A program made the translations under genes and the position numbers. Below the pieces are notes generated by a model. It worked only from the letters and a program-made list of their open reading frames with translations. It was not told the origin of the DNA and made no database searches. From a virus, in IMG/VR virus record IMGVR_UViG_3300005613_000028, positions 64,001 to 86,880 of that record: a stretch of DNA of 22,880 nucleotides; one strand, written 5' to 3'. Below are positions 13,562 to 21,139 of the stretch, in pieces (within the stretch, counting starts at the first letter, position 1; each line of letters starts with the position of its first letter).

Positions 13562-13585
13562 GGTATTTTACCTCCCTTTGATTAA

Positions 13586-13613
13586 AGTATAAAACATTTC
13601 CCCAGCTTGTCAA
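13586..13613 (-). promoter_or_regulatory. Main leftward promoter
   Basis: Leftward -35 TTGACA (13608-13613, a perfect sigma-70 hexamer), a 16-base spacer and -10 TATACT (13586-13591). It drives the gene starting at 13561 and the cluster beyond. No terminator was recognised between it and the promoter at 10.6 kb. Confidence 0.85.
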
Positions 13614-13822
13614 TGGTAACAAGTGAAGTATTTTAATTTAATTTATTCATAACTTATTGATAATAAATAACTTATGTATTTATTATTATTTATTTTCTTT
13701 ATTCCTGTTTTTAATTCTATTTATTAATGATCTTTAAATTCCCTTATAATATGTTAATAAAATAATTTCCTGCATTAATGCCTATTTATTCCTATACATT
13801 AATTAAATGTTTTATTTAATAA

Positions 13823-13842
13823 TAGTATTAATTGGAATACTA
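13823..13842. repeat. Inverted repeat TAGTATT / AATACTA
   Basis: Seven-base perfect arms at 13823-13829 and 13836-13842 with a six-base centre. First of the inverted-repeat cluster. Confidence 0.6.
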
Positions 13843-13892
13843 CTATAAAATAGTCATAACTTATTTAAATTGAATAGATTATAATAAATAAG

Positions 13893-13910
13893 AGTAATAA
13901 ATTTATTACT
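13893..13910. repeat. 18-bp perfect palindrome
   Basis: AGTAATAAATTTATTACT reads the same on both strands without a spacer. Its last four bases are shared with the outer arm of the larger inverted repeat that follows. Confidence 0.75.
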
Positions 13911-13950
13911 TTATTTTAATCACTAGTAAATTACTAGTGATTGTAAAGTA
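13907..13950. repeat. Long two-part inverted repeat
   Basis: Inner arms AATCACTAGTAA (13918-13929) and TTACTAGTGATT (13931-13942) are perfect with a one-base centre. Outer arms TACTTTA (13907-13913) and TAAAGTA (13944-13950) are also perfect, so 19 pairs in all with a small asymmetric bulge. It could extrude as a cruciform or bind a dimeric protein. Confidence 0.8.
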
Positions 13951-13999
13951 TTGGTATGAAAAGAGTTAGGAAGAATTTTTGATTCAAATTTTTTAATCC

Positions 14000-14035
14000 C
14001 TACTAAATTAGTAGTATTTAATAACAAAGTGTTAT
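14000..14035. repeat. Two further short inverted repeats
   Basis: CTACTAA / TTAGTAG (14000-14006 and 14008-14014) and ATAACA / TGTTAT (14021-14026 and 14030-14035), both perfect and six bases apart from each other. Confidence 0.55.
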
Positions 14036-14079
14036 GTTATTATGAAACCTTATATATACCAATAGGTTATAGATAATAA

Positions 14080-14136
14080 ACCTCCCTCAGGTCGATTTTA
14101 GCTAAATAATCGGAGAGGGGAAACCCCATACCACCG
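14080..14136 (+). other. GC-rich foldable element
   Basis: A GC-rich island in very AT-rich DNA. CCCTC pairs with GAGGG around an inner stem CGATT / AATCG, whose loop contains TTAGCTAA. The 3' part can instead form GGGG-AAA-CCCC. The two folds exclude each other. It could be a structured RNA leader, a packaging site or a protein site; the sequence does not decide. Confidence 0.4.
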
Positions 14137-14260
14137 CAAAATTCCCATACTTTTCCCTCTTTTTAAACTTTCCTCTTTCTTTCCTAACCTCTTCTCTCCC
14201 AACGACTTACAACTTTTTTTAATTCTCTTTTTCTTTCTTTTCGATTTCTTCTGAATTTTC
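14136..14260 (+). other. Pyrimidine-rich tract
   Basis: About 120 bases dominated by C and T on the plus strand (runs such as TTCCTCTTTCTTTCC), hence purine-rich on the other. No reading frame of note. Strand-asymmetric tracts like this occur at origins and in duplex-unwinding or triplex-forming DNA. Confidence 0.5.
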
Positions 14261-14436
14261 ACTCAAAATCACTGATTTTTCGTTTAATTCGAAAAAATGA
14301 ACAAAATCTACTTAAAATGAATAAAAATCAAGCTTTTCGGTAACTTTTATTTAATCAAGCTTACGCTTGTAAACCCTACTTAAAATCAATTCTTTATAAG
14401 GCTTTTAGGGACAAATTTGAACGATCTTAATAAATT

Positions 14437-14457
14437 AGACCCCTAGGGTCTTTTTTA
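14437..14457 (+). terminator. Rightward intrinsic terminator with no gene in front
   Basis: Stem AGACCC / GGGTCT (14437-14442, 14446-14451), a three-base loop and six Ts. It would end a rightward transcript, but no plus-strand gene lies in the 850 bases before it. Confidence 0.75.
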
Positions 14458-14510
14458 TTTAAAGTCGAATACAGGGTTATTTAGAGGTATTTATGTGGAT
14501 TAGTGATATT

Positions 14511-14584: not shown

Positions 14585-14613
14585 TTGACACCTCTAAAAA
14601 AATATGTTATACT
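14585..14613 (+). promoter_or_regulatory. Main rightward promoter
   Basis: -35 TTGACA (14585-14590), 17-base spacer, -10 TATACT (14608-14613) with an extended TG. The expected start point, seven bases past the -10, falls on the A of the ATG at 14620. Nearly identical to the promoter at 19131-19159. Confidence 0.9.
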
Positions 14614-14619
14614 TATTAT

Positions 14620-14772
14620 ATGAAGAACAAAATTCAAAGGTTTATATGTTTTTTATTTGGGCATAATTATATTAGGTTAGATGGGTATGATAATGGTCGA
14701 AGTAAATTTGCAGATTTTTTATGTCAAAGATGTGGGAAACTTTATCAAACTCAATATGATTATGGTTCATAA
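14620..14772 (+). CDS. DUF1660-like zinc protein, apparently leaderless
   Basis: A 50-residue protein starting MKNKIQRFICFLFGHNYIRL and ending with CQRCGKLYQTQYDYGS. C10, H15, C35 and C38 form the C-x4-H ... C-x2-C zinc site of the small DUF1660-type phage family (CxxFGHxW ... CxRCG). The function of that family is not known. The start codon sits only seven bases downstream of the -10 box, so the message should begin at or within a base of the AUG. There is no room for a ribosome site. A longer frame back to 14503 would run through the promoter and is rejected. Confidence 0.8.
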   Translation: MKNKIQRFICFLFGHNYIRLDGYDNGRSKFADFLCQRCGKLYQTQYDYGS

Positions 14773-19024: not shown

Positions 19025-19057
19025 AACCCCAATGGGTTACACCATAGAGGTGTTTTT
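19025..19057 (+). terminator. Probable terminator of the rightward operon
   Basis: Two tandem hairpins: AACCC-CAAT-GGGTT (19025-19038), then ACACC-ATAGA-GGTGT (19039-19053) followed by five Ts. Stems are only five pairs each, so moderate strength. Confidence 0.6.
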
Positions 19058-19130
19058 ACTATTTTTTAAGATAAGTATAACTGTTGGTATTAAGAGGGTT
19101 AGGAGAAATTTCTCATAACATTCCGACCCC

Positions 19131-19159
19131 TTGACACCTAAGATATAATATGTTATACT
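19131..19159 (+). promoter_or_regulatory. Second rightward promoter, copy of the first
   Basis: -35 TTGACA (19131-19136), 17-base spacer, -10 TATACT (19154-19159) with extended TG. It shares CCTTGACACCT and AATATGTTATACTTATTATAT with the promoter at 14585-14613. Expected start near 19166. Here the ATG of the first copy reads ATA, so no protein begins at the start point. Confidence 0.88.
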
Positions 19160-19165
19160 TATTAT

Positions 19166-19475
19166 ATAGAGGTATATAACAATACTTAGGGTTTCTCTGT
19201 AAATTCTAGGAAAATGTTTTATAACCCCTTTATTCACAAGGCTTTAGTGAAAAACTAAATATAAAAAGCGTACTGGCGTAATCCAGTTCTAAGAAATACT
19301 AACCTCAAGTTAACGCTCTTGAGCCATGATGCAATGTAAATATAACTAGGGTTTCCTGGGTATGTTGCTTGCATCCCAATGTTTTTATCAAATTTAAATT
19401 CCCAATATAATCATTATTTTTATAATAATATGTAAGAAAACTGTACCTAGAATTTAATTATTCTAGGTCTTTTTT
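19166..19475 (+). ncRNA. Candidate structured noncoding RNA, about 310 nt
   Basis: Bounded by a strong promoter and an intrinsic terminator, with no supportable gene inside. Visible helices are TTCAC/GTGAA (19233-19251), ACTGG/CCAGT (19272-19287), CTCAAG/CTTGAG (near 19304-19322), GATGCAA/TTGCATC (19328-19334 with 19369-19375) enclosing CTAGG/CCTGG, and TGGG-ATG/CAT-CCCA (19358-19378, competing with the previous helix). AGCGT at 19267 can pair with ACGCT in the CTCAAG hairpin loop, a pseudoknot. AATTCTAGG (19202-19210) is a perfect match to CCTAGAATT in the terminator. No known RNA class was recognised. It could instead be a regulated leader for the gene at 19503. Confidence 0.55.
19445..19475 (+). 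terminator. Intrinsic terminator of the noncoding transcript
   Basis: Perfect nine-pair stem ACCTAGAAT / ATTCTAGGT (19445-19453, 19460-19468), six-base loop, then a run of six Ts (19470-19475). Very typical rho-independent signal. The next gene starts 28 bases later. Confidence 0.9.
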
Positions 19476-19502
19476 ATTTTAGCACTAAATGTAAGGAAAT
19501 TT

Positions 19503-20225
19503 ATGAATATTGAAGTAGATAAAGAATATCGAAGATTGCGGAATCTCAAGCAAAACCAAGGGAAATCGGATGATGAGCTAAAATCTCTGTATTCCAATGC
19601 CCAGGTCAATGTTGCTAGAAAAAAAATTAAGATAGAAGATAAATTTAAAGATAGCAAAGAAATTAAACAAGCTATAAAACTTTTTGAATTTTATGTTTCA
19701 GCCTATGAATTTGAATCCTATACTGATCTTCAGACATTAAATACTTTAATATATGAAGAAATGTTGCTAAAACGTGTTCAAAACCACATTAATGTTCTTT
19801 ATGAAACAAAAAAAGATACCTATTTAAATAAAAGTGATAGAGAATCTTTACATAGTATTGAAGATAGAATTATGGAGTTAAAGGTTAAATTGGGAATTGA
19901 CCAAGAAGATAAAACTAAAGATGAATTAACTGAACTTCAATTACTTAAAAAAAGATTTCATGCTCACATTCAGAAAAATAAGTCTGATTTCACGATTAGT
20001 TGTGGAAAATGTGGAACTATGTTGCTTTTAAGGAAAAAAGTTAGTGACTATGAATGTACAATACATCCTTGGTTTCATAGTAGATGGTATTTCAATTATG
20101 AGATTTTAAAAGATTGTAAAGAAGGAAAAATTTCGAAAAAACAAGCTTCCAGATATTTAAATACAAGTTTAGATTATATTCAATGGTGTTTAGAAAATTG
20201 GGAGAAAATTTTAGAAGGTAATTAA
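19503..20225 (+). CDS. Zinc-finger protein at the head of the structural region
   Basis: A 240-residue protein. The first 140 residues are helical and charged (YRRLRNLKQNQGKSDDELKS and on). Then SCGKCGTMLLLRK (about 166-178) forms a zinc knuckle, followed by CTIHPWFHSRWYFNYEILKD, where the Cys and His may complete the site. The last part (GKISKKQASRYLNTSLDYIQ) looks like a small helix-turn-helix. Position before tail genes and after a terminator recalls small-terminase or packaging proteins, but no terminase motif proves it. AAGGAAA precedes the ATG. Expression depends on read-through of the terminator 28 bases upstream or on a promoter not recognised. Confidence 0.78.
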   Translation: MNIEVDKEYRRLRNLKQNQGKSDDELKSLYSNAQVNVARKKIKIEDKFKDSKEIKQAIKLFEFYVSAYEFESYTDLQTLNTLIYEEMLLKRVQNHINVLYETKKDTYLNKSDRESLHSIEDRIMELKVKLGIDQEDKTKDELTELQLLKKRFHAHIQKNKSDFTISCGKCGTMLLLRKKVSDYECTIHPWFHSRWYFNYEILKDCKEGKISKKQASRYLNTSLDYIQWCLENWEKILEGN

Positions 20226-21116: not shown

Positions 21117-21139
21117 GATGGGAGATTAAATCTCCCATC
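21117..21139 (+). repeat. 10-bp perfect hairpin with a stop codon as loop
   Basis: GATGGGAGAT and ATCTCCCATC are perfect arms (21117-21126, 21130-21139); the three loop bases are the TAA of a 12-codon frame that begins on the upstream stop (TAATG, 21091). No T-run follows, so it is not a typical terminator; an mRNA processing or stability element is possible. Confidence 0.7.

Follow-up and report, generated by a model that had tools for sequence, protein, structure and literature searches.

What is the role of a stretch of some 310 nucleotides that carries no credible gene, is framed by a strong promoter and a strong terminator, and lies just ahead of a phage's structural genes? The stretch in question (19166-19475, plus strand) belongs to a window, the whole 22,880 nt of DNA that was analysed, which covers positions 64001-86880, the final quarter, of a virus record that is 86,880 nt long. 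Its features support a putative phage-encoded structured RNA running from promoter to terminator. As to its function, we see about an even chance that it would gate the late operon as a terminated leader transcript of ~305-310 nt, comparable to pR'-6S-tR' of lambda; taken as a whole, this late-gate reading, which draws on sequence, is promising but unproven.

The promoter is the natural place to start. At 19131-19159 on the plus strand we find TTGACA-17-TATACT with an extended -10 TG, matching the consensus at 11 of 12 positions, and the complete 31-nt motif, TTGACACCT-N8-ATATGTTATACTTA (19131-19161), has six copies in its own record (five of them exact, the sixth differing at one position). 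Since a reversed control gave no match, the six copies constitute a real promoter family, and the strong consensus promoter proposed in the first-pass annotation is confirmed. At the five sister promoters a start codon follows ~5-25 nt downstream; the copy at 19131 is the only family member with ~340 nt of gene-free sequence after it. The start of its transcript, 19166, was placed from the -10 element.

Several smaller features surround this promoter. Just 5' of it lies an imperfect 22-bp palindrome (GTTAGGAGAAATTTCTCATAAC, 19098-19119) with 11-nt arms that are 91% complementary; it is unique in the record at up to three mismatches and is a possible operator or protein-binding site. The -10 region recurs in reversed form (ATAAGTATAAC) at 19071-19081. 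Further upstream, a weak terminator-like hairpin on the plus strand (ACACC-ATAGA-GGTGT followed by a T-rich run, 19039-19062; 5-bp stem with three G-C pairs) would close the upstream forward operon. Elsewhere in the window, the sister promoter at 14585-14625 has its first in-frame ATG approximately at the expected start site, which suggests a leaderless mRNA (MKNKIQRFICFLFGHN...). A blastn search of the locus in INPHARED returned matches mainly to the promoter stretch. Staphylococcus phage Stab22 (LR215721.1, L020:1001-1952) has a promoter with 85% identity over 39 nt, and between it and tRNA-Asp lie ~900 nt in which no gene is annotated; apart from the tRNA, that stretch has no Rfam match.

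Does the sequence behind the promoter encode a protein? The longest plus-strand open reading frames in 19160-19500 have 18 and 14 codons and none has a well-placed Shine-Dalgarno sequence, in keeping with the earlier statement that no gene can be supported here; a small-protein reading was dropped on the same evidence. What the stretch does possess is structure. RNA 19166-19480 has a minimum free energy of -67.7 kcal/mol (z -3.2), a value reached by none of 100 shuffles, and the minus strand of the same region has z -1.5. The helices, at least four, named in the first-pass annotation belong to a plus-strand fold that beats chance. The presumed transcript would begin with a 5' hairpin domain, P1 (19166-19232, plus strand; -15.5 kcal/mol and z -1.75 for 19166-19234, versus -10.2 on the minus strand). 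It then enters a GC-rich structured core at about 19260-19390, whose plus-strand z of -3.28 compares with -0.72 for the minus strand. In the predicted fold, the core is closed by a helix of 19264-19271 with 19379-19386 and contains hairpins at 19272-19287, 19304-19323 and 19328-19375. Its GC content reaches 0.40, compared with 0.26 window-wide; in AT-rich genomes, GC-rich gene-free segments are an established indicator of structured RNA (PMC6429828). The long central hairpin (19328-19375) has -19.7 kcal/mol on the plus strand and -10.4 on the minus strand, and ranked fourth in stability among the loci of an unselected scan that covered 43,310 52-nt windows on both strands of the 86.9-kb record. 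The plus-strand fold rests on G-U pairs that are absent from minus-strand RNA, and its orientation matches that of the promoter and the terminator.

One proposed element of the fold lacks support beyond chance. A possible pseudoknot had been suggested between AGCGT (19267-19271) and ACGCT (19313-19317). Both strings are present; by our estimate a 5-bp match of this kind arises by chance fairly often, and AGCGU is taken by the predicted closing helix. We do not count the pseudoknot because of its length of 5 bp and this competition.

At the other end of the stretch, the first-pass annotation had proposed an intrinsic terminator, and the call holds: at 19445-19475 (plus strand) a 9-bp stem with three G-C pairs and a 6-nt loop is followed by the T-rich tail CTTTTTTATTTT, and the stem-loop has -10.9 kcal/mol and z -4.7. 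The first late gene begins 27 nt further on (19503-20225, plus strand). It encodes 240 aa with a CxxC motif and a possible zinc ribbon near the C-terminus; the structure model of this product is of low confidence and too poor to use.

This gene opens a late operon of 28.6 kb, all forward, which extends from record position 83503 through the joined ends of the record to 25270. A 475-codon open reading frame reads across those ends, and the record looks circular or circularly permuted. The operon encodes a tape-measure protein, tail-fibre-like proteins and a TerL-like protein, the last with Walker-A-like and nuclease-like motifs read by eye and without a family match. Three long perfect hairpins without T-tracts lie in its gaps (window 21117-21139; L007 10007-10030 and 13956-13981), possibly as mRNA stabilising or processing sites.

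How, then, are the structural genes transcribed? A record-wide motif search found no family promoter inside the late operon. Sigma-70-like sites occur there at chance level (99 versus 98 expected; 85 versus 82), and no late-promoter motif is repeated in the operon's gaps, where only Shine-Dalgarno-like strings recur. As no promoter was recognised in the operon, the structural genes would be reached either by readthrough of 19445-19475 or from an unrecognised type of promoter, which could possibly lie within 19391-19502 or inside genes. The first-pass annotation had offered three roles for the RNA. Of these, a leader for the structural genes stands as the best contextual fit, given the 27 nt that separate it from a 28.6-kb operon with no other family promoter; for the sponge and for regulation in trans we found no evidence.

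These features can be arranged into a simple scheme. Host RNA polymerase would initiate constantly near 19166, while the five sister promoters are also active, and after ~310 nt would mostly stop at 19445-19475, releasing the folded RNA. Later in infection, antitermination would let the polymerase read through into the structural genes, by means of a phage protein of no recognisable family or of a changed RNA fold. Against such a gate, no Q-like antiterminator or sigma factor family was recognised among the proteins scanned with Pfam and PHROGs (for a 76-protein batch, this holds among the 25 of 34 PHROGs families listed). In addition, the z-scores of plain 150-nt windows are ordinary: the region is unremarkable in them (best rank 26 of 727), and the fold signal lies in the GC-rich core (19258-19391).

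Those ordinary windows also speak for a different explanation, in which the stretch is a long 5' untranslated spacer of the ordinary kind, or acts at the DNA level (as a packaging or replication site), and its folding is incidental. A terminase-like gene ~5 kb 3' of the leader locus fits this too. Such an account must contend with a family promoter and a terminator that share one orientation, with a fold specific to the plus strand, and with the layout of the genome: the GC-skew minimum lies at ~78 kb in the record, in a gap without genes that separates divergent operons (window 13562-14502), and the maximum at ~25 kb, where operons converge. The minimum marks the likely origin; the leader locus, at 83.1 kb, is therefore not at it. 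We regard a spacer or DNA element as highly unlikely.

The gap at 13562-14502, probably the replication origin, has features of its own. It comprises ~940 nt without a credible gene, with divergent operons on either side, strong local structure at ~13900-14070 and a GC-rich patch at 14041-14233. A strong plus-strand terminator (AGACCCCTAGGGTCTTTTTTATTT, 14437-14457) has no plus-strand gene ahead of it, a hint that a second transcript without a gene may span 13.6-14.4 kb. The tail of this terminator, GGTCTTTTTTATTT, is identical to that of the terminator at 19445. The window also holds a tyrosine recombinase of the integrase family (541-1353), and the same phage encodes its own primase-helicase, clamp-loader-like, UvsX and ligase genes.

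Could the leader itself decide whether the terminator forms? A candidate antiterminator strand, TAAATTCTAGG (19200-19210, plus strand), is a perfect 11-bp complement of 19446-19456, the 5' arm of the terminator, a match in length with p ~0.01. In a transcript cut at 19456 this pairing dominates at equilibrium (probability ~0.96), and it gives way to the terminator once the transcript reaches 19468. Here lies the case for a cis-acting RNA switch or put-like antiterminator, in which the leader fold sets termination, for example through this pairing, and a ligand, a protein or translation of a leader peptide are possible drivers. There is a precedent in the put RNA of HK022, where RNA alone can cause antitermination (PMC9378689). 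The energy test is less favourable: 56 of 400 shuffles equal or exceed the leader in capturing the terminator arm, which is not significant, and for that reason RNA-only antitermination through 19200-19210 stays a hypothesis. Nor did Rfam return a riboswitch or T-box match, or our searches any homologues in which conservation could be followed. A switch of this kind seems to us distinctly unlikely.

Searches for known RNA classes gave the same answer throughout. Rfam (6S, tmRNA, riboswitches, T-box, group I intron and others) had no match at gathering or permissive thresholds, the best sub-threshold hit being Spy490483c at 22.2 bits against a cut-off of 65, and ARAGORN found no tRNA or tmRNA in the locus; the failure to assign the RNA to a class by eye is thereby borne out. 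Type III toxin-antitoxin RNAs of the ToxI kind have ~35-nt tandem repeats, with a terminator and a ToxN-like gene downstream. This candidate was rejected: the locus has only two 22-nt copies, 77% alike and 160 nt apart, and the downstream protein has no ToxN match.

Relatives were equally elusive. The RNA body alone gave chance-level matches only against phages and plasmids, and hairpin and promoter patterns had no match in IMG/VR; one relaxed helix-pattern match, antisense to a 602-aa gene on a contig of 49% GC, was set aside as chance. No close relatives were found through the neighbour gene, the TerL-like protein, the capsid region, a 541-aa structural-region protein or UvsX (IMG/VR; partly GTDB contigs, phages and plasmids), in scans that use short exact peptide stretches, reach close relatives only and cover part of the combinations of queries and collections.

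The same RNA could also be free-standing and act in trans, with host RNA, RNA polymerase, a nuclease or a ribosome factor as its binding partner; that it lies ahead of the late operon would then be incidental, and the late genes would have their own unrecognised promoter. A promoter and a terminator bound the locus, a terminator-like site closes the upstream operon too, and the core folds strongly on the plus strand alone, all of which suits an independent unit. The searches found neither a target nor a family, and no other promoter was recognised in the late operon. We consider a trans-acting RNA rather unlikely. It is unlikely, too, that we are dealing with a new class of phage structured RNA that itself times late expression, either through RNA-only antitermination or through an effect on the host polymerase, in a lineage without close relatives in the collections searched. 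If the late gate is real, its presence in an unrelated, AT-rich phage without a recognisable Q or sigma factor would suggest a strategy that extends beyond the known protein families, and a defined 310-nt RNA with a long strand-specific fold would be available for testing RNA-based antitermination.

How does this arrangement compare with known systems? Going by sequence, its layout would be a known kind of late-gene control, and the RNA matches no known family. The best-known cases of a late operon gated by a terminated leader come from lambdoid phages, where gating involves a sigma-dependent promoter-proximal pause, readthrough of the terminator and the Q protein; the 6S RNA of lambda is ~190 nt long. 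The likeness to pR'-6S-tR'-Q is one of sequence layout only: a promoter, a short untranslated terminated RNA, a terminator, and a late operon without another recognised promoter. Unlike the lambda gate, the leader here is ~310 nt with a strand-specific fold, no Q-family protein was recognised, and the promoter belongs to a family common to the phage's other operons.

The put antiterminator RNA of HK022 binds RNA polymerase and needs no protein to cause antitermination. It resembles our locus in having a folded RNA near a phage transcript start and a terminator downstream, with no sequence link between the two. Put RNAs act on early operons and are ~70 nt long, with two stem-loops (PMC9378689), whereas the first 67 nt of the leader are predicted as one long hairpin; put-like elements can, however, sit further downstream. 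Similarly, IsrK of prophage Gifsy-1 combines a terminated short RNA and a presumed readthrough mRNA from one phage promoter, but the leader described here has no known target and no adjacent antQ-like gene was recognised (PMC4825925). Finally, in layout the leader would be like the abundant non-coding RNAs of mycobacteriophages L5, D29 and StarStuff, as a gene-free transcript from a strong phage promoter. For those RNAs the promoter is the early Pleft, located at the right end of the genome (PMC5712189), whereas the leader here precedes the late operon.
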